DNA of 64,000 nucleotides from the NCBI RefSeq assembly GCF_040183065.1, contig NC_091120.1, positions 13,967,208 through 14,031,207 of the forward strand, in the 5' to 3' direction. Below the pieces are notes generated by a model that was given only the letters and a program-made list of their open reading frames with translations, made no database searches and was not told the origin of the DNA. This document shows, in pieces, positions 9,091 through 38,847 of this stretch. Every line of letters begins with the position of its first letter. The stretch's first letter is position 1. The position numbers were made by a program, and so were the translations under genes. Source of the DNA: Periplaneta americana. Lineage: Eukaryota > Arthropoda > Insecta > Blattodea > Blattidae.

Positions 9091-9196
9091 ATCGTGTGTG
9101 CGTGACAGAAAAATCGAACCACAAAATATACACGAAGTACTGTCCACTGCTTGACAAGCCTGGCAGCAAAGTAACGTGCGTATTTGGACACAGCAG
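9091..9196 (+). CDS. Transferrin, N-lobe exon (first recognised)
   Basis: Encodes RVCVTEKSNHKIYTKYCPLL and on to CVFGHS, the start of the N-lobe with its first cysteines. The acceptor is TTTTAG at 9085-9090 and the donor is GTAAGA at 9197. It needs one base from an upstream exon and leaves two bases (AG), which combine with the first base of the next exon to give Arg before LDCLRK. Confidence 0.85.
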
Positions 9197-9313
9197 GTAA
9201 GACTGTAAAGCTTGAACATGTTTAAATCATTGATACAAGTTAGTCCCAAAGTACATCTGATTAACCTCATAAAATGTCTTCTGATTAGTAGGTATTGCTG
9301 TGTATTCATTGTA

Positions 9314-10640
9314 TGAGGGTGGATCGGAAAGTAACGCACAATAATTTTTTTCTGCGTTGGTATTGCGTCTGGGATGTTGACATTTCACCGAGATATAGTT
9401 TGAAGTTTTCACTACAGACACAATTTGTTTTGCATGTGCAGCTCTAGCGAGAGAAGCGTGAACTAAGCAACGAAGATGGTATGCATGATAGTTTCGTCAA
9501 CTATTGAAGAGCAGCGAAGTGCTGTGCGATTTTTGTGGGCTAAAGAACATAACTCGAGTGAAATTCACAGGGACATGTATGGCGTGTATGGAGAAGACTG
9601 TATGGACCGTAGCAACATCTCCAGGCGGTGCGCATTCTTCGCAGACGGCTGTGAGAACCTTTGTGATTCGCCAAATTCCTGGTGGCCAGTAACAGCTGCA
9701 AACCAGCGGAATGTCACAGGCATTGAGGCGGAAATTTTTAACTACCGGCGGATCCAACTGCGAACCTTATCTCAGCAGTTCAACATTTCATACAGTGCGG
9801 TGTACGATATCGTGCATGACACATTGAATTTTCATAAAGTTAGTGCCCGCTGGCTGCCTAAGAACCTGACAGACGACCACAAGTGCCAGCGAATGATGAC
9901 ATGCTTGGTCCACTTAAGTGTTACGCTGCAGAATGGCATGACTTTCTGAAAGGAATTGTAACTGGTAATGAGTTCTGCCTGGGCATACCACTACACGCCC
10001 GAAACAAATCAGGCTTCTGTGGAGTGGAAACATGCTGCTTCCCCAGTAAAGAAAAAATTCACAAAGTTACGCAATCTGCTAAGAAAGTGCTTGACAGTGT
10101 TCTGGGATATGCATGGTGTTTTGTTGGTGGACTGTGCTAAACACGAGACCACTATGAATGCTGCAGCCTACATTCAAACGTTGGTAAAGATGCGTCGTGT
10201 CCTTCGTGACAAACTCCGTAACATTAATGCTGATGATGTCAAACTTCTTCATGGCAAATGTTCGCCCCCATGTTGCGGCTTCTGTTCGTGAGAAAATCAA
10301 CACATTTGGTTGGGAAGTGCTCTAGCATCTACCATACAGTCCAGATTTTGCACCGTCGTACTTTCATCTGTTTGATCCCATGAAGAAATTCCTGGCCGGC
10401 TATCGCTTTCCAACCAATGCAGAAGTGCAATCACTGTCCGCAGATGGCTGTACTTCAATCAAACGGACTTCCGTGAACAGGGTATACTGAAACTGGTACC
10501 ACAATGGGAGAAATGTGTTGAGAAAATTGGCACTTATGTAGAAAAGTAGCTAAAAATGCGAGTTCATTTGTGTATTTTTTATTTTTGTTTACCTATTCAA
10601 CTTTTTTTAAAACTATTGTGCATTACTTTCCGATCCATTC
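9314..10640 (+). mobile_element. mariner-like element, decayed
   Basis: Terminal inverted repeats of about 28 bp contain GGATCGGAAAGTAACGCACA on the left and TGTGCATTACTTTCCGATCC on the right. Both are flanked by TA (9312-9313, 10641-10642). The 1.33-kb length is typical of mariner. It lies in a transferrin intron in sense orientation. Confidence 0.88.
9476..10547 (+). pseudogene. mariner transposase, multiply broken
   Basis: The N-terminal part is readable from 9476 (IEEQRSAVRFLWAKEHNSSE, then a second helix-turn-helix around LRTLSQQFNISYSAVYDIVH and ARWLPKNLT). Frameshifts near 9900, 9960 and 10260 and a stop near 10323 break the catalytic part. The first catalytic motif reads TGNE instead of TGDE and the second (LLHGKCSPPC) has lost its Asp. 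Non-functional. Confidence 0.85.
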
Positions 10641-10769
10641 TAGTACACACGTTCCAAGACTCTAAGTTACTCGCCATTACTTACAACAATGATAAATAGT
10701 GGCTACTTTCCCTTTTTTTTTTATAGGAAATCACCTCTTATGGAGAACTCATTATAATATAGGTGTCTT

Positions 10770-11433
10770 AATAGTACATTATGCAACGAGCCTATTATGG
10801 TAGTAATTAAGACGGGAGCATGTTTATGAAACGAGCACAAGCGAGTTTCATAATTTTCATACGAGCCTCTTAATTACCATTATAGGCAAGTTTCATACGA
10901 CTTTTTATGCTCGACCATATTTCTAACTTGAAATTATTCATAAGTATTCATGTTATTCTTATCTGACTGGGGAGCGGAACTGACCTTGTGCAATATCTCG
11001 TAAATTGTGAGATGAGCGCAGACGCGAAAGTATTGATTTTTTTCGAGAAACAAATGTCATGGACCTTGATATAATGTAGAGAGTAAAATAAACATTAATC
11101 TTGATATAACCTTGAAATTGATTTCGACATTGAAAAACGAGATGACAAATTGAATTTATTTGAATATTATTTACAATTAACGCTAATTATTATAGTAACA
11201 GAACATAACCTTCTGCGACAGTATTGGATTTCCAGCCTCGGTGACGTTTCGCTAGTTGTCTTTCGATTGCATATCCGAGAATAATCGATACTTGCGCTTG
11301 CATATTGCTACAATGGTGTTTTCTGATTGGTGGAACACCTGAACTTTAATGAATAGGTGTACTTTAATGAGGTCCATTAAAGGGCTGCTACCAGGTGTAT
11401 AATTACTACATTTCGGCATGGTCGAGCATAAAA
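10770..11433 (+). repeat. 664-bp interspersed repeat, family R1, copy 1
   Basis: The same sequence occurs in inverted orientation at 32210-32871. One end has ATAGTACATTATGCAACGAG; the other ends GCATGGTCGAGCATAAAA. Internal sub-repeats include ATTAAGACG and GTTTCATA blocks near the first end. No coding capacity was seen. It is probably a non-autonomous DNA element; the superfamily is unknown. Confidence 0.65.
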
Positions 11434-11932
11434 ACACATACCTGTTTGTTTAAAATACAGGAGTAGAGAAGACCCACCATTAGCACTTCAGAGGCCCTCT
11501 ACAAAGCAATGCCGCGTAACTCAACTCATTAAAGTTTTTGGAAGAAACAGAAGTTACCTTAACATCTTTCAAAAGCACTTTTCTGGGCGTTTTAAAAAGG
11601 TCTGTCCTAGACAAGTTATTTCCACACCCTTACTAATGTCATCCAGCCGTCTTTTCCTTGGTTTGCCTGGTTTTCTTTAGAACTCATAGTCATAGTCATA
11701 TAGAAAATCCTAACAAGAATAAAACAAGCAGCATTACAGAGAACTGGATTGTTATGAAACTCATAACATGAGGAAGTGTCACGTCTTTATGATTCTACTT
11801 GTTTATGAAGATCATATGGAAAGTCCGCTACGTTATTTAATCAATGACGTAGCATTTCTTAAGCTTGTTTCCATTAGATTCTTCTTTTTCGCATTACACG
11901 GAAGTTGTTTTTTGATTTTCAATTTGTTTCAG

Positions 11933-12063
11933 ACTGGACTGTCTTAGAAAAGTTTTGGACGGTAAAGCAGATTTTGGAGTTTTTGAGGCAGAAGATATAG
12001 TTGTTGCTTCTAATTACAAGAACCCAGATGTATTAATAGTAAACGAAATCAGAGCTTTAAATA
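11933..12063 (+). CDS. Transferrin N-lobe exon
   Basis: Encodes LDCLRKVLDGKADFGVFEAE and on to IVNEIRALN. The segment ADFGVFEAED aligns with the human segment carrying iron ligand Asp63 (pattern 'A.TLDAG'), so that position reads Glu. The acceptor is TTTCAG before 11933 and the donor GTGAGT at 12064. Confidence 0.92.
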
Positions 12064-12129
12064 GTGAGTAGTTATTACTTTCTAAATATAACTATTACTT
12101 AACTTGAATGTTAACGGTAAGCCTACTAT

Positions 12130-12192
12130 TATATTGTGTGTGTGTTTTTTGTGTGTTGTGTGAATGCGCGCGCGCGTGTGTGTGCGCACGCG
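12130..12192. repeat. GT/GC-rich simple repeat
   Basis: Alternating purine-pyrimidine tract (GTGTGT, GCGCGC, GTGTGT) just downstream of an exon; it could adopt Z-DNA but is otherwise an ordinary microsatellite. Confidence 0.8.
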
Positions 12193-12236
12193 TGAGAACA
12201 CACCTAAATCCATATTGATATAAATACAGTGAGTGA

Positions 12237-12693
12237 ACAAAGTCTTCATACACCAAAATATTTTAACTAAATAGACATATGCTGAGTTTAATTACATAGT
12301 AAAAAAACAATTATTTTTTCTTATATACCTAATAACATAACTAACAGATTTATGTACACCTGATTAATCAAGACCAATTCTGTTAAGACAAAATAATTGT
12401 TTTCTCTAAAAACAAACTAAAAACAGTAAACAAAAGTGTTCATACAGTCACAAATTAATGTCCAATTCTTCATCAAATTAACAGAAATTAATACTACTTG
12501 GTGGGATTTCCTTTTGCTTCCACAACTCTTGTGAAATGTCTTGATATTGATTCCACAAAATTATTTCTAGTCTTGGAAGGCGGAATTTTATTCCATTCCT
12601 TTAAGAGGGCATCCTTCAGATTCTGTTTGTTCTTCAGTTGCCCTTCTCTGAATTTGATGTCGAGTTAGCTCCACAGATGCTCTATGGGATATA
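12237..12693 (-). mobile_element. Tc1-like element, 3' half (transposase C-terminus)
   Basis: Read on the minus strand, 12690 to about 12497 gives PIEHLWS, one stop, then an LDIKFREG...LLKEWNKIP segment and a final FTRVVEAKGNPTKY. This is the standard C-terminal pattern of Tc1 transposases ('NPIEHLW ... GG.TKY'). The terminal repeat begins CAGTGAGTGAACAAAGT at 12237 after TA. The coding sequence is cut exactly where the DD41D element begins at 12694. The N-terminal half reappears at about 14440-14822. Confidence 0.75.
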
Positions 12694-14119
12694 CAGGGTG
12701 TTTCAAAAATATGGGGCATAATTTCAGGTATGTATTTCCCACATGTAGACAGTCAAAATAGTTTATTACAACATGTGTCCGGAAATGCTTCATTTCCGAG
12801 TTATGGCCTTCACAACATTGAAATTCACCAGAACGTTTTTCTTTCCGCAGGTCGTTGTCATTACAGAAGATGTTCAAAATGTCCACCTCCTGCTTGAATA
12901 CAGACCTCACATCGATGTCTCATTGACCTGCGAACACGATCCCAAACTCCATGAGTATTGAGTATGTCCTCAGAACATGCCACAATTCGATTCCGAAGGG
13001 ATTCCAAATCAGGCACTGGAGACGAATAAACCAATGATTTTAAATGGCCCCACAAGTAGAAATCGAGAGGGTTCAGATCAGGTGAGCATGGAGGCCAAGC
13101 AATTGGGCCACTTCTACCTATCCATCGATCAGGAAACCTTCGATCCAAGTACCGGCGAGCCGTACGACTGAAGTGTGCAGGAGCGCCATCATGCAAGAAG
13201 TGAATGTGTTGACGATTGATCAGTGGAGTCTCTTCTAAAACATGAGATATGGTGTTTTCCAGGAAGTTTGTGTACGCCTGCCCCGTAAGTCTGTTTACAA
13301 GTACATGGGGTCCAACTAATCGATCACCAATGATACCGGCCCACATGTTGAGGGAGAACCGCACCTGGTGATGAGATGGAACAGTTGCACGTGGGTTTTC
13401 ATACGCCCATACATGCTGATTGTGGAAAATTGTTATGCCATCTCGTGTGAACTGTGCTTCATCTGTAAATAATACTAAGGCAGGAAAGTTCGGATTTACA
13501 CCACACTGCTGCAAGAACCACTGACAGAACCTAACTCGTGCAGGGTTATCTGCTGGTGACAGGGCCTGTACACGTTGCAAATGATAAGGATACAATTGAT
13601 ACTCTTTCAACAGTCTCCAGACAGTCGTATGAGGAACATTGACTTGCAACGCTACCCTTCGTGTGCTGATAGAAGGAGTCATGTTCACAGCCTCCAGAAT
13701 CTCCTCCTGTACTTCTGGAGTTGTAGATCTTGGTCGTCCCCTTCCCAAACCAGGAGAGTTAAATTTTCCATACTCGCACAGACGGTAATGGAGATGTACA
13801 AATGTCTTCCGATCTGGACATTGTCGCTGTGGGTACCTCTCCTGGTACAAACGACTAGCCAGCGCAGCATTGCCGTCTGCCTTACCGTACATGAAATGTA
13901 TCTCTGCCAGCTCTTGATTTGAATAAATGTCGCACAGTCTAACGCCTACACAACACTGAATGTAACCTTCGCCTCAGAATGAACTGTCAGAGTGCCCTCT
14001 TAATGTCTCCTTTGACGGCAACGACCTGCGGAAAGAAAAACATTCCGGTGAATTTCAATGTTGTGAAGGCCATAACTCGGAAATAAAGCATTTCCGGACA
14101 CATGTTGTAATGAACTAGG
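12694..14119 (-). mobile_element. DD41D mariner-superfamily transposon, one end truncated
   Basis: Left end CAGGGTGTTTCAAAAATATG follows a TA. Long inverted repeats flank the gene: about 12754-12855 matches 14018-14119 in reverse complement, sharing TTCCGAGTTATGGCCTTCAC and a CTTTCCGCAGGTCGTTG block. The right end stops at 14119, about 60 bases short of the expected terminus, where a 5'-truncated SINE begins. It is inserted in the Tc1 element. Confidence 0.82.
12861..13892 (-). CDS. DD41D-type (Rosa-like) transposase, uninterrupted
   Basis: A 343-residue frame without stops. It has an N-terminal helix-turn-helix region (about residues 1-60), a GRGRPRSTTPEVQEEI linker of AT-hook-like character, and a second helix-turn-helix (SISTRRVALQVNVPHTTVWR, about 93-112). 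The RNase H-fold domain follows with LFTDEAQFTRDG (first Asp), FLHDGAPAH (second Asp) and WPPCSPDLNPLDFYLWG (third Asp). I count 41 residues between the second and third catalytic Asp, which fits DD41D families such as Rosa rather than DD34D mariner or DD34E Tc1. It lies antisense to transferrin, in an intron. Length and motifs are complete, so the protein may be functional, although one end of the element is truncated. Exact family placement needs a tree. Confidence 0.9.
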   Translation of the reverse strand: MYGKADGNAALASRLYQERYPQRQCPDRKTFVHLHYRLCEYGKFNSPGLGRGRPRSTTPEVQEEILEAVNMTPSISTRRVALQVNVPHTTVWRLLKEYQLYPYHLQRVQALSPADNPARVRFCQWFLQQCGVNPNFPALVLFTDEAQFTRDGITIFHNQHVWAYENPRATVPSHHQVRFSLNMWAGIIGDRLVGPHVLVNRLTGQAYTNFLENTISHVLEETPLINRQHIHFLHDGAPAHFSRTARRYLDRRFPDRWIGRSGPIAWPPCSPDLNPLDFYLWGHLKSLVYSSPVPDLESLRNRIVACSEDILNTHGVWDRVRRSMRHRCEVCIQAGGGHFEHLL

Positions 14120-14435
14120 CTACGAACTGGAAGGTCCGGGGTTCGATCTCGAGTGGTGACGGGATTTTTCTCGTTGCCAAACTTTCAGAATGGCCCCAAG
14201 GTTCACTCTCAGCCTCCTATAAAATTGAGTATCGGATCTTTCCCGGGGGTAAAAGGCGGTCAGACCACACCAACTCATTCTAGTGCCGAGGTCATGGAAA
14301 GCATGGGGCTCTACCTCCATGCCCCCCAAGTGCCTTCATGGCATGTGACGGGGATACCTTTTATGGGTTTCAGATTCTTTGTGTTTTTTCTCTCCATATC
14401 AGTGTCGTCCCATCTGACGAAAATGCAATAAACTC
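14120..14435 (+). mobile_element. tRNA-derived SINE (family S1), 5'-truncated
   Basis: Begins inside the tRNA-like head (GGCTACGAACTGGAAGGTCC, then B box GGGGTTCGATCTC). The body is shared with the full copy at 14828, including TTGCCAAACTTTCAGAA, GGTAAAAGGCGGTCAGA and GTCATGGAAAGCATGGGGCT. It joins directly to the truncated DD41D end. Confidence 0.82.
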
Positions 14436-14822
14436 GATAAATATGATTCTATCCCAAAACTTGTTTGTTATGTTTACATGCATTTTAACAAACAAGATTC
14501 TCTTTTTTCCATTTCTTTCATTGACATAACATTTTCTAGGTGCTACTCTACCGTGAAAATTGTTATTTCTTAGTCAGTTTCTTACTGTTGAGGGATTGAC
14601 GTTTAAGTGAATTTCATGATTTAACTGACTAGCTATTTTCGGAACAGTGATATGTGATTCACTTCATTTACTTACTTTTGTTGGATGGCTCGAGCTCCTT
14701 CGATTTTTGAAAGATTTTGACTTACCAACTCTGTCAATTATAATCTGAATGGCCTTCCTACACTTTTTGATATTTCGGAGAGAGACTTACATTGATTAAG
14801 CAAATTAATTATAATTCTTCTC
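14436..14822 (-). pseudogene. Tc1-like transposase N-terminal half
   Basis: Read on the minus strand, the region yields the Tc1 DNA-binding pattern with scattered stops and frameshifts. There is an NRRSSSHPTKVS segment (a GRP-like hook), then HITVPKIASQLN and PSTVRN (the second helix-turn-helix), then FHGRVA and KKRILFVKMHVNITNKFWDR. This is the counterpart of the C-terminal half at 12237-12693. The segment between them carrying the catalytic residues is missing. Confidence 0.65.
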
Positions 14823-14827
14823 TCCTC

Positions 14828-15125: not shown

Positions 15126-15271
15126 TTCTCTCCTCTTCAGTTGTTTCACGTCGTTTACACTTCATATTGCTGTATTACTTCAACACAGTACACAAATGCA
15201 GTCCGCACTAGTACTCTGGTGTATCTGAATGTACCATGAACTGAACAGACACTGAGGTTCATCTATTTCTC

Positions 15272-15844: not shown

Positions 15845-15978
15845 CTACATATGAATACGAAGTACTGCCTATTGTGAGAAAGAGTGCCAACATCACAAGG
15901 ATATCACAGCTGAAAGGCAAGAACTTCTGTCATTCAGGCTATGGGTATGAACCTGATTGGACCACAGTTATATCTCAG
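15845..15978 (+). CDS. Transferrin N-lobe exon
   Basis: Encodes TYEYEVLPIVRK...QLKGKNFCHSGYGYEPDWTT. The YEYEVLPIV segment aligns with the human segment holding Tyr95, and Glu falls at the ligand position. In the anion-binding loop, CHSGYGYE replaces CHTGLGRS, so the carbonate-binding Arg is a Tyr. Acceptor AAAAG before 15845 (chosen for phase), donor GTGAGC at 15979. Confidence 0.9.
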
Positions 15979-17686: not shown

Positions 17687-17688
17687 TA

Positions 17689-17901: not shown

Positions 17902-18046
17902 TACTTCGAAGCCCAGGTAGTAACGCCAGTATGTGATCCAGACCTGAGTACTGTGGAGAACCTTCTGAAGTCATCATCTCAGTATTTTAAAGCTGCCTGC
18001 AAAGCAGGACCTTGGGTTCCAGATAATAAATTGGATACAAAGCTAA
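17902..18046 (+). CDS. Transferrin N-lobe exon
   Basis: Encodes YFEAQVVTPVCDPDLSTVEN and LLKSSSQYFKAACKAGPWVP, matching the transferrin region where a cysteine-bearing 'FF..sC.pGa' segment occurs. Acceptor TTTCAG, donor GTACGT at 18047. Confidence 0.93.
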
Positions 18047-18690: not shown

Positions 18691-19836
18691 AAGTTTATTC
18701 GTATTGATTCTTTGCATGAAAAGAAATGACCGAATTCTGTGATAACAAATACAGGTAAATCTCACACAGGATAAAGGAGATTTATAAAAGGTGCCTTAGT
18801 GAACGAATTCAGATGTAGATGCATAAAGATAGCGTGTGATATGTTTTCCTAGATCACTTCTGTTCCTCAGTGTTCATGAGGTCCGCACAGGACGAAATTC
18901 TTAGGCTCAGCCCAGTCCGAACTGAACCAGACCCGAACCTGACCCGAAACCCGAGATTAGCTTATAATTACCAACCCAAGCCCGACCAGAAATCCGAAGA
19001 CCAGTAGATAAAGCAGAGGTCAGAGATATCACTCCAGCAGGAGCATGAGAAAGAGTAATCTCCCAGTCTGCCAGGTAAAATAAATAAACAGTGCTCTGTG
19101 TCTATGACAAAGCAGAGACGAGACAAATGATGTTGCGAAATAATATGAAGTCGAACTAAACAATAACTTACGATACCGATAGTCTATTGTTCTGGATGGG
19201 TACCAGGTGAACATTAATCATGCGTGCAATAAAATCTTCGTATTATTTTTTAATCAATATATAATTCGCGGCAAAAAAAAGATTTCGTTTCTTTAAGACC
19301 CAAACCTGGCCTGAACCTGACAAGCATAAGTGAATTTCAAGCCTAGACCTGCAGGCTTGACCTGAGCCTGTGCAGACTTCTAACTCTGAACACACTCTAG
19401 TTAAAAATTTTCTGTTAAACAAAATTATTTACATCCTTAGTGCACTTCCTGTCTACATATTAACAGTGGCGTAATATGAAATTTTGAGCAGAGAAAGCTA
19501 CCGGTAAATCAAGTTGTCTTTCATATATGAGAAAACGTATTGATAAAATATAGTCTTAAAATAAATAGTAGTCGATGTAAAGTCAGCAGTCCGAAGATTG
19601 GTTGGAACCTCATAAGTAATACCAATAAGGCATCACCTCAAATGGTAGTAAAATATGATTTCATGGTTTACACATATCTCTAAGAAATAGACACATACGT
19701 ATAATTTAACTCCCTGTCATATTTAGACAAATCACAATATTAACGGTCAATAGATACAGTGTTAGTATAATTACGTCAATCAATGTTAAAATATTTATCA
19801 GAAGATTATTTTTGACTACATAAATACCTGAAATCT

Positions 19837-20415
19837 TGATTTGCATAATACACGTCACTGTTCGTTAACAGAAAACCACAATTTAAGTCACACGGAGTTA
19901 GTGTGCACTCGAAGTTGGTTGCTTGACGGTTGTCAGCCCACTTTGAGGTCTGTGGATATAGAGGGAAAAATTGGATCGGTGTCGGTTAGAGTTCCCGGGT
20001 AGCTCAGTGGTAGAGCATTGGTACGTTAAACCGAAGGTCCCGGGTTCGATACCCGGCTCCAGAACAATTTTTCCCTCGAAATTATTCAAATCAACTTTAC
20101 AGGGAGTTATACCTGAAATCTTGATTTGCATAATACACGTCACTGTTCGTTAACAGAAAAAAACCACAATTTAAGTCACACGGAGTTAGTGTGCACTCGA
20201 AGTTGGTTGCTTGACGGTTGTCAGCCCACTTTTTCTGCGGATATAGAGGGAAAAATTGGATCGGTGTCGGTTAGAGTTCCCGGGTAGCTCAGTGGTAGAG
20301 CGTTGGTACGTTAAACCGAAGGTCCCGGGTTCGATACCCGGCTACGGAACAATTTTTCCCTCGAAATTATTCAAATCAACTTTACAGGGAGTTATACCTG
20401 AAATCTTGATTTGCA
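19837..20415 (+). mobile_element. SINE family S3, tandem dimer (285-bp period)
   Basis: Two head-to-tail units: the phrase TTGATTTGCATA recurs at 19836, 20121 and 20406, exactly 285 bases apart. Each unit has a tRNA-like block (about 19989-20066 and 20275-20350) with A box GGTAGCTCAGTGGTAGAGC, an anticodon arm whose 7-base loop contains GTT (Asn-like), and B box GGGTTCGATACCC. Acceptor-stem pairing is imperfect, so these are not called as functional tRNA genes. Confidence 0.8.
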
Positions 20416-20930
20416 TACATAAATTAGTGTCAGTATTTCACTCATTATTTATTATATCAGCCACACTGCACACTAACACTTCAGCTGAACACAACTCACG
20501 AAAGGAATAACTCGAAAGCTAAATTATTTCCAATGCCAAAGCTAGCTTCTTGCGAGCCTTGTGACTAGGGTAGTTTAGTTAGAAAGGGATGGAAAATCTG
20601 CGAGGTGGGTTACACAGAAAAAATCGTGAAAGAAACGCGTCTGCTTGTAGCCCAGTGGAGTGGATTGGAAGCTGGTGTGTGCAGGCTTCATGTTTACTGC
20701 TGCATCACAAATCATCCTGAGCTGCCGCATCACAACATTTAACGCGTACATATAAATTGTTGTACAGTATTAAAATTAATAAATAATTTTGTTCATAACT
20801 GTAGGTTTATTATGTAGTTATTAACTGGGGAAGCTGAGCTTTTTAGCTTACATTGACGCTACGCCATTGCATATTAATATGTCTGTTTCCCCACATGTAT
20901 GTTAAAAAATATCTTTTTTATTTTTTTCAG

Positions 20931-21222
20931 AACAAACATACTCAAATCTGTGTAAGTTGTGTGGCAACCCGTCAGACTGCTCAGTTAACGACAAGTACTG
21001 GGGATCAAGTGGACCATTGTATTGTCTGACAGATGGCGGTGGTGATGTTGCATGGGCAAAATTTGCGACTATTGAATACCACTTTGGAATCAATGGTGGG
21101 AATCCAGTGGCCCCACCAGATGAGTACAACTTTCTGTGTGCAGATAACAGGTTGACTCCTCTAGATAAGCCAGAGGACTGTGCTTGGTTGGCTCGTCCTT
21201 GGGCAACTGTGCTCTCAAGAAG
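20931..21222 (+). CDS. Transferrin N-lobe exon (largest)
   Basis: Encodes YSNLCKLCG, the CLTDGGGDVAWAKFATIEYH core and a CADNRLTPLDKPEDCAWLAR segment. At the human Tyr188 motif 'YFGYSGAF' the sequence is KYWGSSGPL, so Tyr becomes Ser. At the human His249 motif 'PSHTVV' it is RPWATVL. Acceptor TTTTTCAG before 20931. Donor GTACCT at 21223 was chosen over a GT at 21267 because only it keeps the reading frame into the next exon. Confidence 0.93.
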
Positions 21223-21637: not shown

Positions 21638-23085
21638 ATTTAACATAGGTAGTAAGTACTTGCAATTTGGGAAAAGGAAATTGTACCAGAATAATGGAAG
21701 GAGTCCATAATCGTACCTATTTTTAAGAAGGGGGACAAGACTAACTGTAGTAACTTTCGAGGAATCTCACTTTTGTTGACATGGTATAAAAGTTTGTCGA
21801 ATATCCTTTTGAGAAGATTAACTCCATATATAGATGAAATTATTGGGGATCATCAATGTGGTTTTAGGCGTAATAGATCGACTATTGATCAGATTTTTTG
21901 TATTCGACAGATATTGGAGAAAAAATGGGAGTATAAGGGTACAGTACATCAGTTATTCATAGATTTCAAAAAGGCATATGACTCGGTTAAGAGAGAAGTT
22001 TTATATGATATTCTTATTGAATTTGGTATTCCCAAGAAACTAGTTCGATTAATTAAAATGTGTCTTAATGAAACTTACAGCAGAGTCCGTATAGGTCAGT
22101 TTCTATCTGATGCTTTTCCAATTCACTGCGGGCTAAAGCAGGGAAATGCATTGTCACCTCTACTTTTTAACTTTGCTCTGGAATATGCCATTAGGAAAGT
22201 TCAGGATAACACAGAGGGTTTGGAATTGAACAGGTTACATCAGCTTCTTGTCTATGCAGATGACCTGAATATGTTAGGACAAAATCCACAAACGATTAGG
22301 GAAAACACGAAAATTCTACTTGAAGCAAGTAAAGCGATAGGATTGGAAGTAAATCTCGAGAAGACTAAGTATATGATTATGTCTCGTGACCAGAATACTG
22401 TACGAAATGGAAATATAAAAATTGGAGATTTATCCTTCGAAGCGGTGGAAAAATTCAAATATCTTGGAGCAACAGTAACAAATATAAATGACACTCAGGA
22501 GGAAATTAAACGCAGAATAAATATGGGTAATGCGTGTTATTATTTAGATGAGAAGCTTTTGTCATCTAGTCTGCTGTAAAAAAAATCTTAAAGTTAGAAT
22601 TTATAAAACAGTTATATTACCGGTTGTTCTGTATGGTTGTGAAGCTTGGACTCTCACTCTGAGAGAGGAACAGAGATTAAGGGTGTTTGAGAATAAGGTT
22701 CTTAGGAAAATATTTGGGGCTAAGAGGGATGAAGTTACAGGAGAATGGAGAAAGTTTCACAACGCAGAGCTGCACGCATTGTATTCTTCACCTGACGTAA
22801 TTAGGAACACTAATAATCCAGACGCTTGAGATGGGCAGGGCATGTAGCATGTATGGGCGAATCCAGAAATGCATATAGAGTGTTAGTTGGGAGGCCGGAG
22901 GGAAAAAGACCTTTGGGGAGGCCGAGACGTAGATGGGAAGATAATATTAAAATGGATTTGAGGGAGGTGGGATATGATACAGACTGGATTAATCTTTCTC
23001 AGGATAGGGACCAATGGCGGGCTTATGTGAGGGCAGCAATGAACCTCCGGGTTCTTTAAAAGTCAATAAGTAAGTAAGTAAGTAT
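21638..23085 (+). mobile_element. LINE family A, longest copy
   Basis: Holds most of the reverse-transcriptase domain. About 21665-21780 is a decayed [15 protein letters not shown]-type start. 21773-22579 reads through [44 protein letters not shown] and VYADDLNML. 22548-22829 and 22826-23059 hold the C-terminal block in shifted frames. It ends with TAAG repeats. Imperfect direct repeats flank it (TTCATATTTTCATTGCA at 21621 and TTCAAATTTTAATTGAA at about 23086). Confidence 0.88.
21773..22579 (+). pseudogene. Non-LTR reverse transcriptase, palm and fingers
   Basis: A 268-residue frame with the catalytic DFKKAYD (first Asp) and YADD motifs intact and the [17 protein letters not shown] segment of non-LTR enzymes. 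Frameshifts before about 21770 and after 22560 make it non-functional as a whole. It belongs to the same family as the fragments at 1986, 27972, 37670 and 51313. Confidence 0.85.
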
Positions 23086-23940: not shown

Positions 23941-24095
23941 GAAAACTGCTGAAGGTGTGCAGAAAATAATGTCATTTCTGAAAGATGTCGAATACTTATC
24001 ATGGAAATGGGCTTTGGAGGAATTACTGGAAATACACACCCAAACCATAGTAGCGTTAAATCAAATGATGGTGCCTGAGGATTATCTTAGAAAAG
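23941..24095 (+). CDS. Transferrin inter-lobe exon
   Basis: Encodes KTAEGVQKIMSFLKDVEYLS, WKWALEELLE and QMMVPEDYLRK, the end of the N-lobe and the bridge. Acceptor CCTCAG before 23941, donor GTAAGA at 24096. Confidence 0.93.
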
Positions 24096-24288
24096 GTAAG
24101 ATGTTAACTGAAAAGTATGGTAAGAAATATTAATCTAAATTTATTGATTTCGAGAAACTAAAGATTGAAAGATTTTAAATTCAAGTAATAGTTGAAGTAA
24201 TCTTCAACAATTCATTCTTGTTTATACAAGCAGTTAAATTTAAGCAGTTTCATAGTATAATAAGGTAATACTGGCATTACAATATAAC

Positions 24289-25782: not shown

Positions 25783-27115
25783 CGAGGCTCATCTATAAAG
25801 TAAGTTTCCCGATCTTTTCCCCTTGAAAGTAAACGTAATTAGCCGTGTCAATTGCGCATGCGTAACAGATCTATGACATATCAATCATATGCCAGCCGGA
25901 CAGGTCCCACCTGGTGCCAGTAGCGTGGCAGCAGTGGTCCGAAATGGAAGCTCTTATTCTTTCTCCCACCGCCTGCGAGGTTCGGTCGGTGATAAAGTTC
26001 TTTAATGCACAAAGCATTGCGCCAATTGAAATTCATCGGCAGCTCTGTCAGGTCTATGGGCCAAACATCATGAGTAAGCAGATGGTGCGTCGCTGATGTA
26101 GGCAGTTTTCCGAAGGTCGTCAAAGTGTCCATGATGAAGAGCGCAATGAGCGACCATCACTCAACAGTGATGATCGTGTTGAGCTGGTGCGGCAGTGCAT
26201 CATGGAGAACCGTCGCTTCACGATTACGGAGCTGAGCAGCCATTTTCCGCAGATATCGCGATCCTTGTTGCATGAGATTGTCACTAAGCACCTGCTGTTC
26301 AAAAAAGTGTGTGCCAGGTGGGTGCCGAAAAACCTGACACCCGAACACAAAATGCAACATTTAGGAGCAGCACTGACATTTCTGCAATGGTATCACGATG
26401 ACTGCGACAAGTTTCTCGACAGGATCGTCACGGGCGATGAGACTTTGATTTCGCACTTCACCCTGGAAACCAAGCAGCAGTCAATGCATTGGCAGCATAG
26501 TGGATCTCCGGTCAGGACGAAATTCAAACAGATGCTGTCGGTACGGAAAGTGATGTGCACGGTGTTCTGGGACAGGAAGGGCATTCTGCTCATTGACTTC
26601 CTTCCAAGAGGTGAAACAGTGAACGCTGACCATTACTGTGAAACACTGCGAAAATTGCGACGTGCCATTCAAAACAAGAGGCGTGGAATGCTTACTGCAG
26701 GTGTTGTGCTCCTCCTTGACAATGCTCGTCCACATACAGCTCGGCGCACAGCATCTGTTTTGACGGAATTTGGCTGGGAGTTGTTTGATCATTTACCCTA
26801 CAGTCCTGATCTTACTCCCAGCGATTTTCACGTTTTCTTGTACCTCAAGAAATTCCTGTCCTCTGGTGAGCGTTTTGGCAACGACGAAGAGCTGAAGACG
26901 TCTGTCACACGCTGGTTCCATTCTCAGGCGGCAGAGTTCTATGACAGAGGGATACAAAAGTTGATCCCACGATACGACAAGTGTCTCAATTCTGATGGTG
27001 GCTATGTTGAAAAATAGCTGAAACATTGTTGTACCTGTTGCTAATAAATGTTTTCCTGAAAGTGTGTGTTCTTTTTTTTTTTAAATAGGGAAACTTACTT
27101 TCTGGATGCGCCTCG
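25783..27115 (+). mobile_element. mariner element, nearly intact
   Basis: 1,333 bp between TA dinucleotides (25781-25782 and 27116-27117). The inverted ends are CGAGGCTCATCTATAAAGTA on the left and TTACTTTCTGGATGCGCCTCG (reverse) on the right. The right end is only 66 bases upstream of a transferrin splice acceptor. Confidence 0.93.
25944..27017 (+). pseudogene. mariner DD34D transposase with one premature stop
   Basis: A start codon at 25944 opens a frame whose only defect is a TGA at 26094-26096; the frame then runs open to 27017. The N-terminal helix-turn-helix lies in residues 1-110. The catalytic motifs VTGDET, LLLDNARPH and YSPDLTPSDFH are intact, with 34 residues between the second and third Asp. 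At the stop, mariner proteins usually have an aromatic residue within 'vrrW...F', so a single Trp-to-stop change is likely. Confidence 0.9.
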
Positions 27116-27181: not shown

Positions 27182-27428
27182 CTCCGGGATTTTTAAGTGC
27201 CAATACTGTAACAAATTGTAAACCTTCTGGTAACGTCCGCATCTGCACCAGAACAAGTGCTGAGATGAATAAATGCGACTTGTTACAAAAAGCAGCGTCT
27301 GCATACGGCATAAAGCCACAACTGGAGTGTCTTCTGGGCCAGACCTCGGAATCCTGCATGAAAGCAGTGCAGACAGATATTGCAGACGTGGTCATCACTC
27401 AGCCAGACGATCTCCACGCTGGTCGCAA
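27182..27428 (+). CDS. Transferrin C-lobe exon
   Basis: Encodes PGFLSANTVTNCKPSGNVRI, CTRTSAEMNKC and QTDIADVVITQPDDLHAGR. The last segment corresponds to the human segment with Asp392 ('AMSLDGG'), and no Asp is at the aligned position. Acceptor TTTCAG before 27182, donor GTAGGT at 27429. Confidence 0.93.
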
Positions 27429-27972: not shown

Positions 27973-28114
27973 TAAAATGGATTTGAGGGAGGTGGGGTAT
28001 GGTGATAGAGACTGGATTAATCTTGCACAGGATAGGGACCGCTGGCGGGCTTATGTGAGGGCGGCAATGAACCTTCGGGTTCCTTAAAAGCCATTTGTAA
28101 GTAAGTAAGTATTA

Positions 28115-28151
<37 letters not shown>

Positions 28152-28184
28152 TACTATTATTATTATTACTATTATTATTATTAC

Positions 28185-28226
<42 letters not shown>

Positions 28227-28252
28227 TACTACTTTTACTATTACTATTATTA

Positions 28253-28304
<52 letters not shown>

Positions 28305-28395
28305 TATTACTATTACTACTACTACTATTACTACTATTACTATTACTACTATTACTATTATTATTATTTTTATTATTATTATTATTATTTTGCTT
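27916..28395. repeat. (ATT)n microsatellite interrupted by a LINE fragment
   Basis: ATT repeats run from 27916 to 27971 and from 28112 to 28395, with ACT variant units in the second block. Long open frames of Leu or Asn here are artefacts of the repeat. Confidence 0.95.
27972..28111 (+). mobile_element. LINE family A, extreme 3' end
   Basis: About 140 bases matching the last 45 codons of the family ([22 protein letters not shown]) plus the TAAG repeat tail, embedded in an ATT microsatellite. Confidence 0.88.
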
Positions 28396-29148: not shown

Positions 29149-29300
29149 AGAGTTTGCTTTGAAGCCATTATTATATGAATACACAAAGAATATCAATAGA
29201 ATTCAGAGAGTTGCAGCAGTAGTGCCAATAAATTCACCAATCAAACGTATAAATGACTTGAGAGGAAAGAAAGCTTGTTTTCCAGTTTATGATGGCATTG
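29149..29300 (+). CDS. Transferrin C-lobe exon
   Basis: Encodes EFALKPLLYEYTKNINRIQR, VAAVVPINSP and NDLRGKKACFPVYDGI. In human transferrin the corresponding segment has Tyr426 ('GYFAVAVVKK') and the anion loop 'CHTAVGRTAGW'. Here the tyrosine is lost and CFPVYDGIGW lacks the Thr and Arg. Acceptor TTTCCAG, donor GTAAGT at 29301. Confidence 0.93.
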
Positions 29301-31225: not shown

Positions 31226-31384
31226 GTTGGAATTCCATATTCACTGCGTTGAAAGACAAAGGCTTACTCCCCTCTTCTTGCTCCAGTGTAGAAGCACTTG
31301 GTGAATTTTTTTCAGAAAGCTGTGTACCAGGCATCAATAAGACGCACAATTTTCGTGAAAGTTTACAAACATTGTGCGATGGAG
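31226..31384 (+). CDS. Transferrin C-lobe exon with a GC donor
   Basis: Encodes WNSIFTALKDKGLLPSSC and ESCVPGINKTHNFRESLQTL, then CDG. The acceptor is TTACAG before 31226. To keep frame with the next exon and restore the conserved DRYSG start, the exon must end at 31384, making the donor GCATGT instead of GT. The in-frame alternative (GT at 31389 with an acceptor at 31954) would delete the conserved RYSG segment. Confidence 0.85.
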
Positions 31385-31883
31385 GCATGTAATACACTAC
31401 CATTATTTTAAAGCAAAATATTGTATTAAGTTAAGGAATTTCAAACATTTAAAATATAAGTAAATCATAGAAATAAAGTTAATGATGTATTCTCTATTGG
31501 AAAACAAACGGAACTTCAATAAAAATGTGCATGTGTTTGTGTGTTCAAATATTGGTAACAGTTCTCTGAATAATACCTGTTGAGTTCGTAATTGGTTTTA
31601 TGAAATTTGAAACAAAAACCTAAGTTAACTGCAGTAAAAGAAAATGGAGAGTGTGATTTCTCTGAATGCTATTAATGATATTTGTATAGCTACATCTCAA
31701 AATCAGTCTTCGTCCAGCTCTTTGATAATTCTAATTCTTCAAGTATTTTCCCTTCAACCCTGATATAATAAACTTCTGAACTATCTGTTGATACCGATTA
31801 TTTACATTAAATTGATCTGTTAATATGACTTGTTTCTGCAGTGAATGTAAGCTACGTCTACATCAATGCAGATCATACATTAG

Positions 31884-32147
<264 letters not shown>

Positions 32148-32209
32148 TAGGCATTGGAGCAGAGCATAAGCTTGTGCTCGGGCGCAGTTCAGTTTAGTTA
32201 TACAAAATA

Positions 32210-32871: not shown

Positions 32872-33275
32872 ACAAAATTGAAGTGTTCATTGAGCACAAC
32901 AACATTAATATACAAAGCGTTCATTTCAAAACTTCCCAGTCTAAATAAGTATAAGTTTAAATTGAATTTAATTAAAGAAAGAACACATCAATTTAGATAT
33001 TAAGGGGGAAGTTTAAAACCAGTCTTAACTGATTATTAAGTTTCACCCCTTCACTCTCAGCCACCAAACATTTAAGTCAGGATCTGGAAAAGAGAAAGTA
33101 AAATTTTTTAAGTAAGGCGTTCTTTTTCTATTCAGTTACGGTGATGGTAATCTTAACTTACTTCAAAAGTCTTAGTAGGTAGTAGGCCTATATATTATTA
33201 ATCAGTGCCATGTAACTCATTTCAATATTTTAAGCAATGTAATTTTAAATTTAAGTGGTACTTGTATATTTGCAG

Positions 33276-33382
33276 ACAATGATAACACATCGCATGTAAA
33301 TCTGCAATCTAAAAACTTCAGGCCTATTTGTCTTGAAGATCAGGCTGAAGAATGCTACTTAACCTGGGCTACTCCTGGACAA
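33276..33382 (+). CDS. Transferrin C-lobe exon
   Basis: Encodes NDNTSHVNLQSKNFRPICLE and DQAEECYLTWATPGQ, the region of human His585 ('C.LA.APNHAVV'). No His is at the aligned position. Acceptor TTTGCAG before 33276, donor GTAAGA at 33383. Confidence 0.93.
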
Positions 33383-33732
33383 GTAAGAAATGGATTCTGA
33401 ATTTATGTTTCTCAGTAGACTACACAAAATATTTATTACGAGAATGATAAAAAATCATACTGGTGTATGTAGAGTAATCAGGTCTTTTTTAACATTTAAG
33501 AATTACCTAAAACTAACAGTTTATATGTATTATAAATGGAGAACAAATGCATGGTTCGTCCATTATGTAATTTTTCATATATACTTCAGTATGTACCAGT
33601 ACCTTTCGTTCATTTCGTAGACAGAACAATGTAAGTATATAACATACGTTATGAGAATTAGTGGGCGTTATTTTCCAAAAGTCAGTATGGTAGAGAACTT
33701 GATACAGTAGCAGTCAAGAGTGGAAAAATGAA

Positions 33733-34583
33733 TTAAATACTATTATAGTCACAATCATGCCATGGTATGAAAGAAAAATTTCACAACCTCGAGCGGGAAT
33801 CGAACCTGCGACTTCCTGGTCTCCGGTCAGGCGCTCTACCACTCACGCCAAAGGCTCGGAATTATCCTTTCATACTGGCGACTCTGTTATAGAGTACTGT
33901 CCATAGCGTCTGATCTAGTCAGCACTGCTTATGGCTTGAAAGAAACTTTACAAATGTAATCTTCATCTTACGATGTTTGGGTGACGTATATACGTCCGTT
34001 GATGTGACATATTAATGAATTAAATACTATTATAGTCACAATCATGCCATGGTATGAAAGAAAAATTTCACAACCTCGAGCGGGAATCGAACCTGCGACT
34101 TCCTGGTCTCTGGTTTGGCGCTCTACCACTGAGCTATCAAGTTCGTCTCACGCAAAAGGCTCGGAATTATCCTTTCATACTGGCGACTCTGTTATAGAGT
34201 AATAGTATTTAATTCATTAATATGTCACATCAACGGACGTATATACGTCACCCAAACATCGTAAGATGAAGATTACATTGTAAAGTTTCTTTCCACCCAT
34301 AAGCAGTGCTGACTAAGATCAGACGCTATGGACAGTACTCTATAACAGAGTCGCCAGTATGAAAGGATAATTCCGAGCCTTTGGCGTGAGACGAACTCGA
34401 TAGCTCAGTGGTAGAGCGCCTGACCGGAGACCAGGAAGTCGCAGGTTCGATTCCCGCTCGAGGTTGTGAAATTTTTCTTTCATACCATGGCATGATTGTG
34501 ACTATAATAGTATTTAATTCATTAATATGTCACATCAACGGACGTATATACGTCACCCAAACATCGTAAGATGAAGATTACAG
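33733..34583. mobile_element. SINE family S4: tandem and inverted array
   Basis: Four units of one family. Unit 1 (33733-34018) is minus-oriented and complete. Unit 2 (34019-34199) is minus-oriented and cut after the CTGTTATAGAGTA phrase. Unit 3 (34200-34512) is plus-oriented with the tRNA-like block at 34393-34466 (A box GATAGCTCAGTGGTAGAGCG, B box GCAGGTTCGATTCCCGC). Unit 4 (34513-34583) is a partial plus-oriented tail. Units join precisely at ACTATTATAGT-like ends, giving a large palindrome centred near 34199. Confidence 0.82.
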
Positions 34584-34918
34584 TGGAAAAATGTTATAGG
34601 CAAATATTAGGAACCAACTGTTCGACTTACTTTAATAAAAGCTTAAAAGTATTGTTCAGAGATCATGCAAACGTATATATTTCGGTCACACATTTTAAAA
34701 GAACTATTCATTATTTCTAATGTTACGCTAAAGATTTATATAATTATAAAAGACCCTGGAAAGTTGACTGTATTGTAAGTATACCACAGAAAATTATTTT
34801 GAAGAAATATTTGGAAATCTGAATAAACTGATTAGTGTTATTTAGTTCACATATTAATTGTTACTTTAATAAGTTACCTACATTTCTTTCGTTAATGCAA
34901 GAATTGGTGTGGTTTTAG

Positions 34919-35074
34919 GTTTTAATAAGAAGCAATACACCTGCTGTGAAGCAGAGGGAAATCGCTATAGCTCTAATGGAATTAGGACATTTGTTCGGCA
35001 AATATCATAATGCACCAACAGCAGAATATCAGATGTTTGCACCTTTTGATAATGAGTCCAACGTATTATTTCAG
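34919..35074 (+). CDS. Transferrin C-lobe exon
   Basis: Encodes VLIRSNTPAVKQREIAIALM, GHLFGKYHN and APFDNESNVLFQ. It follows CAA of the previous exon to read PGQVLIRS, matching 'avvtR' of transferrins. Acceptor TTTTAG before 34919, donor GTAAGA at 35075. Confidence 0.93.
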
Positions 35075-35538
35075 GTAAGAAATTAACAATTAATTGCTTT
35101 CAGATTTTACAGAATTACTCAGCTCCTTTCTAGGAGATGAGAGTTAACAGGCTATTTACTTTATATTACAATTGAAATGTAAATAATTCCTATTTTTAAT
35201 TTGTCATTGTGAAAAATAGAGAGGAGAAATTTTGTTTCTGAAAAGAAGATATCATTTTCAATATTTGTGAAGAAATGTACATTTTACATTTTCTACATGT
35301 CTGTTCCTAAAAAAAAGTGGTTTTAAGGTATACCGGTAGTTAATGTTTCTATTGTCTTTCCTTCATGACGTATTAGACAGAGTGTCAATATGTAGAATAT
35401 ACTGGTCAACTTACTCGTAAAGTAAGCTTATGCATATGAATTTTCCATTTTGAATCTTGTATACACTACTTTTAACACTTGAATATAAGTAATTGATTAA
35501 TTAGCAGACTAACTCGTGTTAATTATGTAAGTTTGTGC

Positions 35539-35582
35539 GGCTTACAGCTGTTTCGGTGCTTCATCACACCATCCTCAGAGCC
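35539..35582 (-). ncRNA. Hammerhead-ribozyme-like motif
   Basis: On the minus strand: GGCT, CTGAGGA, T, GGTG-loop-CACC (a full 4-bp stem II), GAAAC, AGCT, GTA, AGCC. This is the best-preserved of the three motifs; variable core position 7 is G. Confidence 0.5.
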
Positions 35583-36123
35583 TACTAGATCTCGGCGTCA
35601 TCTCGAACTTCTCTGCCTGTTATGTGGGTGCGTTTGATTGTTGAAAGGTGTTGAAAAGTGGAGTCAAATAGTGTGTGTGTACTGAAATTGATCTGTGTGT
35701 TGAGAATTTGATCGGAGTGTGTTTTAGTGTGTTTGTATATTTCGTATTGTTCTAGTGTGTTGAGTTTTTGGTTCTTGGGTTGTATGTGTAGGATTTCCAT
35801 GTCCGCATTTATGTTACTGTATGTATGGTTAGCATTGGTTATGTGATCGGCGTATGTAGATGTATTGTGTGCTAACCGTACATACAATAACATAAATGCG
35901 GACATGGAAATCCTACACATACAACCCAAGAACCAAAAACTCAACATACTAGAACAATACGAAATATACAAACACACTAAAACACACTCCGATCAAATTC
36001 TCAACACACAGATCAATTTCAGTACACACACACACTATTTGACTCCACTTTTCAACACCTTTCAACAATCAAACGCACCCACATAACAGGCAGAGAAGTT
36101 CGAGATGACGCTGAGATCTAGTA

Positions 36124-36167
36124 GGCTCTGAGGATGGTGTGATGAAGCACTGAAACAGCTGTAAGCC
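36124..36167 (+). ncRNA. Hammerhead-ribozyme-like motif
   Basis: Mirror copy of 35539-35582 on the plus strand, with GCACT instead of GCACC, which shortens stem II by one pair. Confidence 0.45.
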
Positions 36168-36231
36168 GCACAAACTTACATAATTAACACGAGTAAGTCC
36201 GCTAGTTAATCAATTACTTATATAAATTTTC

Positions 36232-36882
36232 TTAATTTTGTAAGAAGAATTATACATTAATTAAAAATGCATATTAAAGTATATCTGTATATTTCCAAAT
36301 GTGTCAAATTTAAGTACAAAAAAAATACCTCAACTCCAGTTCAGATCTTTGGATGAATTTACTATCTGGTACAAATTAACATACAATTTAATCCATTTAC
36401 GAGCTAAGTCGAGCCACTCTTTGGAAGTTACCTGTAATGAATTTTTGTAACACGTCACTTACCTAGATAATACTTCGTAAAGACATTGGTTGGTTAGTAA
36501 CACCTTCAGTTGTGATCCACTTCTGGACTGATAATGAAAAAAATAATGAATTTCTGAGACCAGGGCATACACAGAGCAACCTTCTTTGCTCCACATGATA
36601 GAGTGGTGGAATATGTCAAGATGTCGACTAGCAAAATTGTTTTAACATTGCTGGTAAATTTTTCCTGGAGCTCTTTATTCAGAGGAAGTGTTCTTTAATA
36701 TACCACAAATCCACAAAAGGACACTTTTCATTTGTAGGTGTAGCTGGAATGATTATTTTGACACAAATTAAATCTTCATAGTTAAGACTTTCAAACATAC
36801 AGAAAAGTTTTCCATGCATTTCGATATAATCTAAATTATGTTATTTTCGTGCAATTTAGTTTTATAATATTGTATTGGTCCA
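36232..36882. other. Intron sequence, nothing recognised
   Basis: Last transferrin intron; no reading frame, terminal repeat or tRNA-like block seen here. Confidence 0.3.
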
Positions 36883-37070
36883 CCACTTTGGAGTTGTGGT
36901 TAGCGTGTCTGACTACGAAACTAGCAGGCCCGGGATGGAATACTAGTTGAGGTTTTTTCCAGGGTTTTCCCTCAACCCATTAAGAGCAAATGTGGGTAAC
37001 TTTCAGTGCTGGGTTTCGGGTTTATTTCGCCGTCAGTATCATCTTCATCTTCATCTACCCTGCGTACTTC
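36883..37070 (+). mobile_element. SINE, diverged
   Basis: A-box-like GTTGTGGTTAGCGTGTCTGA is followed by a B-box-like GCCCGGGATGGAATACTAG. The body GTTTTTTCCAGGGTTTTCCC ... CGTCAGTATCATCTTCATC resembles family S2 read in the opposite direction. Confidence 0.6.
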
Positions 37071-37407
37071 CACACTCATATGTATTTGATAGAACTCAGA
37101 AATATTATTTTCTTGTTGTCATATCGTCAGTTAACGGAAAGTAAGTGTCATCGTTATAAATGTAGCACTCACACATTGGCTTAGTGCATTACACGGGTAT
37201 ATCAGATGGCATGTAGCAGTTGTAAAGGGACTGTGTTCTATCACTGGAAAGTACTACAGTAGAATCCCTCTTATCAGGCACCAATTTTGCCAGATAATTG
37301 AATAAATACCGGTATATGCAAAAAAAAAAAGTTCGTATTTTATGGTGTCAAATGTTGAAACTGCAGCCATGTGAAGTTTATTTCTTCATCACGTGCTCAT
37401 AACTGAA

Positions 37408-38380
37408 TAAACATAAAAATTGTGTCGATTTTTCTCATTAAAACACATCACACAACACAAACAGTACACTAATTTTAGGTTCGAATATTCACTGAATATT
37501 AAAGTTCGTGCGAACTTCCTAATGTGACAACACTGATGGCTCGAACATAACTAAAGAAACATAAAAACTGTGTGGATTTTCTTTATTAAAACACATCACA
37601 CAACACAAATAATACACTAAGTTTAGGTTCGAATATTCACTGAAAATTAAAGTTCGTGCGAACTTCCTACTTACTTACTTACTGGCTTTTAAGGAAGCAG
37701 GAGGTTCATTGCCACCCTCACATAAGCCCGCCATTGATCCCTATCCTGAGCAAGATTAATCCATTCTCTATCATCATATCCCACCTCCCTCAAATCCATT
37801 TTAATATTATCTTCCCATCTATGTCTCGGCCTCCCTAAAGGTTTTTTTCCCTCCGGCCTCCCAACTAACACTCTATATGCATTTCTGGATTCGCCCATAT
37901 GTGCTACATGCCCTGCCCATCTCAAACATCTGGATTTAATGTTCCTAATTATGTCAGGTGAAGAATACAATGCGTGACAGTTCTGCATTGTGTAACTTTC
38001 TCCATTCTTTTGTCACTTCATCCCTCTTAGCCCCAAATATTTTCCTAAGCACCTTATTCTCAAATACCCTTAACCTATGTTCCTCTCTCAAAGTGAGAGT
38101 CCAAGTTTCACAACCATACAGAACAACCGGTAATATAACTGTTTTATAAATTCTAACTTTCAGATTTTTTGACAGCAGACTGGATGATAAAAGCTTCTTA
38201 ACCGAATAATAATAGCCATTTCCCATATTTATTCTGTGTTTAATTTCCTCCCGAGTATCATTTATATTTGTTACTGTTACTCCAAGATATTTGAACTTCT
38301 CCACCTCTTCAAAAGATAAATTTCCAACGTGCGAACTTCCTAATGTGGCAAAACTGACGGCCCAGACTGTGGCAATGTGA
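37408..38380. repeat. About 150-bp tandem repeat split by a LINE
   Basis: Two units share ACACATCACACAACACAAA, TAGGTTCGAATATTCACTGA and TTCGTGCGAACTTCCTA (37408-37550 and 37558-37669). The second unit is interrupted by the LINE at 37670-38328 and resumes at 38329. Each unit contains the short palindrome GTTCGTGCGAAC. Confidence 0.65.
37670..38328 (-). mobile_element. LINE family A copy with perfect target-site duplication
   Basis: Minus-strand 3' part of LINE family A (FKYLGVTVTNIND through GRPRHRWEDN and WRAYVRVAMN), tail TAAG repeats at 37670-37682. It is flanked by the 14-bp direct repeat GTGCGAACTTCCTA at 37656-37669 and 38329-38342, the signature of target-primed reverse transcription. 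Reading frames 38304-37954 and 37988-37689 overlap because of a frameshift near 37980. Confidence 0.93.
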
Positions 38381-38679
38381 CAGATTTAAACTTTTTTTTT
38401 TTGACTAGCCTAAAGTGCCATTGTTTTGGTATTGCCGGTTATTTTGGTGCCAATTCCGAGGGATTTTACTGTATCTCTTACGAATGTTGAACCTATTCTA
38501 CTTCTAACGCTAGAAAACTCGGATCATATTAGTCATCAACTTATAGTTGTATTAATGAATAGTAAATTATAATTTTAATATTACTTTGGATTAATATGAA
38601 GCATTTAAGTAGTCAGTTAAAAATGCCGTAGTTATTTCATTTATTGAAAGACTGGAATGTATTTTGCGCTTTCTTTCAG

Positions 38680-38847
38680 GATGTAACTTATCATTTTGAA
38701 GAATACACTTCACTTCAACAATTTGATCGCAGTTACGACAAGCTGATTGAAGAACTTCCACAGTGCTCTTCGGCACATAGGCCTACTTTCATGACATCAT
38801 ATCTTACTGCCATGGCTATTCTGCTTCTACTACTGATGTCATTCTAA
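38680..38847 (+). CDS. Transferrin last exon with GPI-anchor-like tail
   Basis: Encodes DVTYHFEEYTSLQQFDRSYD, LPQCSSAHRP and a terminal hydrophobic segment LTAMAILLLLLMSF followed by TAA. The order of small residues (CSSA), spacer and hydrophobic end without charged residues is typical of a GPI-anchor signal, as in melanotransferrin-type proteins. Acceptor TTTCAG before 38680. No AATAAA was seen in the next 150 bases. Confidence 0.92.
   Translation, partial: DVTYHFEEYTSLQQFDRSYDKLIEELPQCSSAHRPTFMTSYLTAMAILLLLLMSF

Follow-up and report, generated by a model that had tools for sequence, protein, structure and literature searches.

Insect transferrin-1 (Tsf1) holds Fe3+ through two tyrosines and two carbonates, and vertebrates have turned the transferrin fold to other uses in the inhibitor of carbonic anhydrase and saxiphilin. 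Only transferrin-1 reportedly serves iron homeostasis among the insect transferrins, to go by the title of a survey by Najera et al., who are also said to define Tsf4. Non-iron insect transferrins are already known, and the gene described here adds another. It lies in a stretch of 64,000 nucleotides from Periplaneta americana (contig NC_091120.1, positions 13,967,208 to 14,031,207 of the forward strand; hereafter the window), where a transferrin gene of 13 exons on the + strand (9091..38847) encodes a two-lobed protein in which most positions that would coordinate iron, and all those that would hold the carbonate anion, are changed.

The closest described relatives differ in their anchoring and in their use of iron. 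The N-lobe of human melanotransferrin carries the full Asp/Tyr/Tyr/His (DYYH) tetrad, while its C-lobe has lost iron binding, most likely through loss of both carbonate ligands (PMC7804310). Double mutants of serum transferrin at the carbonate-ligand sites lose iron (PMC7804310). Drosophila Tsf2 is a junctional protein linked to glycosylphosphatidylinositol (GPI) (PMC13213057). Rhodnius has two many-intron transferrin paralogues with predicted GPI anchors beside Trf1 (PMC5801409). Tsf3 is poorly characterised (PMC10117857; PMC3708341) and went undetected in hemolymph (PMC10117857).

Ligand positions and state of the gene

The joined protein is recognised as a transferrin by hmmscan (Pfam Transferrin, PF00405; 218.6 bits against a cutoff of 20.3, E 1.6e-64), in two stretches that fall in both halves. 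Among the best 60 of 94 distinct sequences matched by phmmer in PDB chains, human melanotransferrin stands first (1.2e-64) and Manduca sexta transferrin-1 next (2.8e-63). The cysteine framework is retained, as the original prediction held in stating that most cysteines remain: 25 of the 26 invariant Cys cells of canonical iron lobes are kept in the preferred splice, and presumably 24 if an earlier GT donor is used. The missing cell belongs to the C-lobe, where SLQTLC faces human SLCKLC, and its loss leaves an odd total of 27 cysteines under the preferred splice; the shorter exon would give 26.

Ligand positions were read from a MAFFT alignment of eight lobes, comprising the N- and C-lobes of the window protein, human transferrin and human melanotransferrin together with the N-lobe and part of the C-lobe of Manduca Tsf1. 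Human transferrin is represented by the sequence of PDB chain 28mr_A, on which the ligand numbering was checked. In the N-lobe, Asp63 is replaced by Glu, Tyr188 by Ser and His249 by Ala, where the reading by eye had E, S and W/A, and Tyr95 is kept; at the anion site, Thr120 becomes Ser and Arg124 becomes Tyr. The C-lobe has Gln for Asp392, Gln for Tyr426, Glu for Tyr517 and Gly for His585, in agreement with the C-lobe changes first proposed, among them Tyr517 to Glu. The Tyr426 assignment comes from a gapless count from the next Cys, since MAFFT places a gap there. Of the C-lobe anion residues, Thr452 is Pro and Arg456 is Asp beside a one-residue deletion. Changes thus affect 7 of the 8 metal ligands and all 4 of the anion residues, and two of these 11 substitutions are mild (Asp to Glu, Thr to Ser). 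A conserved Asp/Tyr/Tyr/His set was looked for in either cleft of the alignment, and it is absent from both lobes (N: E, Y, S, A; C: Q, Q, E, G). The Thr and Arg that hold carbonate are likewise absent from both (N: S, Y; C: P, D), so that the predicted alteration of the anion loop in each lobe is upheld.

The broader claim that every iron ligand has been lost stands for seven of the eight metal ligands and fails for Tyr95, which is still Tyr. The reading of this position as Glu arose from an off-by-one alignment slip. Human FYYAVAVVKK, in which Tyr95 is the first Tyr, is matched by YEYEVLPIVRK in the window protein, and the Tyr of YEVLPIV sits opposite Tyr95. Its retention is agreed by tblastn with human transferrin, by phmmer against Manduca Tsf1 and by the MAFFT alignment. 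The window protein resembles Manduca sexta transferrin-1 (PDB 6WB6), which has the nearest N-lobe in the comparison, in an inserted segment, an ARPW motif and a Tyr in the Tyr90 column; unlike that chain, it has Ser in the Tyr204 column, Tyr in the Arg120 column and Glu in the Asn121 column. We take Tyr90 and Tyr204 to be the two tyrosine iron ligands of Manduca Tsf1, with Asn121 presumably serving its second carbonate.

Loss at these positions is more than chance. Three canonical iron-binding lobes agree in 109 columns, of which six hold ligand or anion residues. In these six the two window lobes together keep 1 of 12 cells, and in the remaining columns they keep 99 of 206 (one-sided Fisher p 0.006). 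The effect is carried by the C-lobe, which alone gives a significant difference (0/6 against 58/103, p 0.009). By an identical count the Manduca Tsf1 N-lobe keeps five of its six ligand and anion cells, and the melanotransferrin C-lobe, which does not use iron, keeps three of six.

These losses bear directly on iron. The C-lobe lacks both carbonate ligands; in the N-lobe the Arg, one Tyr and the His are gone, and the Thr is Ser. Loss of the anion Thr and Arg alone is blamed for the failure of the melanotransferrin C-lobe to bind iron, so classical iron binding would be very unlikely in either window lobe.

The frame itself is open over 699 codons with its splice borders present (11 of 12 introns GT-AG, one modelled as GC-AG). 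At 5% neutral divergence about 5 stops would be expected in 699 codons, given that 5.2% of single-base changes make stops; none is seen. The absence of stops speaks against an old pseudogene and not against a very recent one. A search for orthologues with 675 of the 699 residues gave 19 pattern matches in genome contigs and 4 in viral contigs, none of them confirmed, and yielded no relative. The gene is real and is probably a living non-iron transferrin paralogue, of a kind already known from insects. With the changed ligand and anion positions set beside a frame, splice borders and cysteines that hold, the original prediction of an intact gene that is not a classical iron carrier finds support.

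Gene model and surrounding sequence

Translation in six frames and a tblastn search with human serotransferrin located transferrin pieces on the + strand from 11.9 to 32.0 kb, and matching of splice borders and phases then gave the gene. The reconstruction bears out the predicted 13 exons, their outer coordinates and the single open frame; the predicted length of 681 residues is replaced by 699 residues plus a stop. All exons named here are on the + strand.

The N-lobe begins with RVCVTEKS... in exon 9091..9196, placed by splice borders, phase and tblastn of the joined protein. Exon 11933..12063 (tblastn, splicing, MAFFT) carries the Glu at the Asp63 position, and exon 15845..15978, on which phmmer agrees with the same three lines of evidence, carries the Tyr at Tyr95, the Ser at Thr120 and the Tyr at Arg124. 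The Tsf1-like inserted segment is encoded by exon 17902..18046 (splicing, phmmer). Exon 20931..21222 (tblastn, splicing, MAFFT) contains Ser for Tyr188 and Ala for His249, and the N-lobe ends in exon 23941..24095 (splicing), which has a further in-phase donor at 24119.

The C-lobe starts in exon 27182..27428 with Gln for Asp392 (tblastn, splicing, MAFFT) and continues in exon 29149..29300 with Gln for Tyr426 on the gapless count, Pro for Thr452 and the loss of Arg456 (splicing, MAFFT). It then passes through exon 31226..31384 (splicing), exon 31891..32040 with Glu for Tyr517 (tblastn, splicing, MAFFT) and exon 33276..33382 with Gly for His585 (splicing, MAFFT). Exon 34919..35074 is the top-scoring exon of the needed phase between 33380 and 38660; 34571-34672 was tried in its place and rejected for its lower splice score. 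The last exon, 38680..38847, encodes the C-terminal helix, the last Cys, a GPI-type hydrophobic tail and the stop (splicing, hydropathy).

Two ends of this model are less firm. The 506-base intron at 31385-31890 is modelled as GC-AG (AG/GCATGT). Two upstream GT donors (exon end at 31354 or 31360) would use the same acceptor and keep the frame, shortening the protein by about 10 residues that include one conserved Cys. The GC donor is preferred because it retains the segment with this Cys. The exact end of exon 31226..31384 is uncertain, and its disputed part carries no ligand position. The start codon and signal-peptide exon lie outside the 13-exon model. A weak candidate for them, whose phase fits 9091, is at 1355..1418 (+ strand; MSYFNYVITLYLFLTGAAERT); nothing else upstream of 9091 passes simple filters for hydropathy, donor and phase.

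A second transferrin was sought within the window by tblastn of the joined protein, which returns the 13 exons and otherwise only matches of E 2.2 or worse. At 43780-43836 a short open stretch contains 19 residues like the end of the human transferrin C-lobe (tblastn 22.3 bits, E 2.8), which in a further search is again the best match downstream; it is not matched by the window protein in tblastn and is probably a chance likeness.

The window holds a variety of repeats, several of them in the gene's introns. At 19824-20417 a 285-base unit is repeated 2.1 times with 96% matches, each copy containing a stretch like transfer RNA (tRNA) at 19993-20064 and 20278-20349 (Rfam RF00005); it is probably a tRNA-derived short interspersed element in tandem within an intron. 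Another intron has two opposed tRNA-like stretches about 250 bases apart, at 34072-34143 (-) and 34394-34465 (+) (Rfam RF00005). Intronic transposon remains at 26097-27017 (+), 12861-13973 (-) and 21695-22579 (+) comprise a mariner-type transposase (PF01359), a DDE_3 transposase and a reverse transcriptase (PF00078). A peptide from the end of a long interspersed element recurs at 22817-23059, 37689-38012 (-), 51330-52328 (-) and 2423-2944; it occurs in cockroach annotation and so gives a slight hint of a cockroach host. A TAT/TTA-type microsatellite of 280 bases at 28110-28389 leaves several frames open over long runs that have no meaning.

On the - strand, 41878-43608 and 56306-56698 contain exons of two apparent genes of the fumarylacetoacetate-hydrolase family (PF01557), with matches to PF01557 in three open stretches (E 4.1e-31, 3.6e-11 and 1.7e-31). 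These may form a tandem pair downstream of the transferrin.

Affinities, probable tethering and competing readings

The two lobes point to different relatives. In the MAFFT alignment the N-lobe shares 31.8% identity with Manduca Tsf1, 26.2% with the human transferrin N-lobe and 23.5% with the melanotransferrin N-lobe. The C-lobe is about equidistant from all compared (29.6 to 31.7%), the nearest being the melanotransferrin C-lobe at 31.7%. Three trees split the window N-lobe and the Tsf1 N-lobe from the vertebrate lobes with 95-97% bootstrap on very long branches. Among them a six-row tree keeps this split at 97/95, with its midpoint root falling between the two rows concerned. Because the branches are so long, the suggested grouping with Tsf1 is taken as a lead only.

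Comparison by architecture gives a further set of likenesses. Like melanotransferrin and Drosophila Tsf2, the window protein is bilobal, and its hydrophobic C-terminal tail would match their GPI type. It also shares with melanotransferrin a presumably inactive C-lobe whose anion residues are lost (PMC7804310), but melanotransferrin has a working iron site in its N-lobe, a set that the window N-lobe does not have. The GPI-type tail sets the protein apart from Rhodnius Trf1, which is reported as extracellular and lacking a predicted GPI anchor (PMC5801409). Inhibitor of carbonic anhydrase and saxiphilin, likewise transferrin folds, are both among the PDB matches listed; they are weaker phmmer matches (1.4e-31 for 3mc2, 5.8e-29 for 6o0d) and are vertebrate proteins with other functions. 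Likeness to insect Tsf3 and Tsf4, paralogues with no accepted iron role, is one of description rather than of sequence. The window protein probably belongs to the Tsf3 or Tsf4 group, an assignment made from a comparison in which the insect sequence is that of Tsf1.

The protein ends CSSAHRPTFMTSYLTAMAILLLLLMSF; hydrophobicity peaks in this region, after the last Cys, and the top 15-residue hydropathy windows of the protein start at 679-685. This tail resembles a GPI signal, and a membrane tether is probable on that likeness. A signal peptide, in an exon still to be fixed, would take the protein into the secretory path; the tail would be swapped for a GPI anchor and the protein tethered to the outer cell surface. 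Its clefts would be unable to enclose Fe3+ together with carbonate. On epithelial cells the disulfide-locked lobes could offer a surface for binding or adhesion. Such a role would be comparable to that of the junctional, GPI-linked Tsf2 of Drosophila, minus its iron cycle. The GPI-type tail would fit a role at the cell surface or in junctions.

We consider it moderately likely that the gene encodes a living, secreted, tail-anchored insect transferrin paralogue that offers a surface for binding or adhesion without iron. The family of the two-lobed fold, the cysteines, the lost ligands, the hydrophobic tail and the open frame are observed. Secretion, anchoring, the lack of iron, the adhesion role and identity as Tsf3 or Tsf4 are inferred. 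Several points weigh against it. Taken alone, the N-lobe shows no significant excess of loss at ligand and anion positions (1/6 against 41/103, p 0.25). Weaker or different metal binding may still be available to this lobe, which retains Tyr95 and still has an acidic residue in place of Asp63. Knockdown of Tsf3 in Drosophila alleviated a phenotype of frataxin deficiency, and the authors regard this as indirect evidence of a role in iron (PMC4951068). Comparison with Tsf2 is only partial, since Tsf2 reportedly depends on iron binding for its junctional role (PMC3708341).

The Tsf3 result, the retained Tyr95 and the mild substitutions of Glu for Asp63 and Ser for Thr120 could all be accommodated by a working iron carrier with a relaxed ligand set. 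Set against this are the changes of Arg124 to Tyr, Tyr188 to Ser and His249 to Ala in the N-lobe and a C-lobe that retains 0 of 6 ligand and anion residues, and such a carrier seems highly improbable. The N-lobe cleft could instead have been rebuilt rather than emptied, with Glu (Asp63), Tyr (Tyr95), Tyr (Arg124) and Glu (Ser125) holding another metal or ligand without carbonate. All four residues lie at or beside former metal and anion positions, and insect Tsf1 is already unorthodox in having Gln in the His249 column; this proposal is nevertheless sequence-based speculation in a lobe whose second Tyr ligand is Ser, and it appears unlikely. Its more specific form, in which a membrane-tethered protein displays a carbonate-independent E/Y/Y/E pocket that accepts a different metal or some small cationic ligand, would be more doubtful still.

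Two further accounts concern what kind of gene this is. A recent pseudogene whose ligands have drifted away would be consistent with the long branches, with one intron that is not GT-AG (or else a shortened exon 31226..31384) and with a start exon that was not found. The lack of any stop where about five would be expected, and the upkeep of 25 of 26 Cys cells while the ligands are gone, leave it quite improbable. Orthology with Tsf2 and melanotransferrin is suggested by the GPI-type tail, by human melanotransferrin, which heads the PDB matches to the full-length query, and by the affinity of the C-lobe to that of melanotransferrin. The window protein nonetheless has E, Y, S, A where the melanotransferrin N-lobe has its full tetrad, and its N-lobe is nearer Tsf1 (31.8% against 23.5%), to which the trees join it, albeit on long branches; we see only a slim chance of such orthology.

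Read as a living non-iron paralogue, the Periplaneta gene is a clean case in which the disulfide-locked bilobal transferrin fold is retained and the iron chemistry given up, with one tyrosine ligand remaining. If orthologues keep Tyr95 and its unusual Glu and Tyr neighbours, they would point to a testable alternative ligand for non-iron insect transferrins. If they do not, these proteins would be good subjects for asking what role an iron-free transferrin fold plays on the cell surface.

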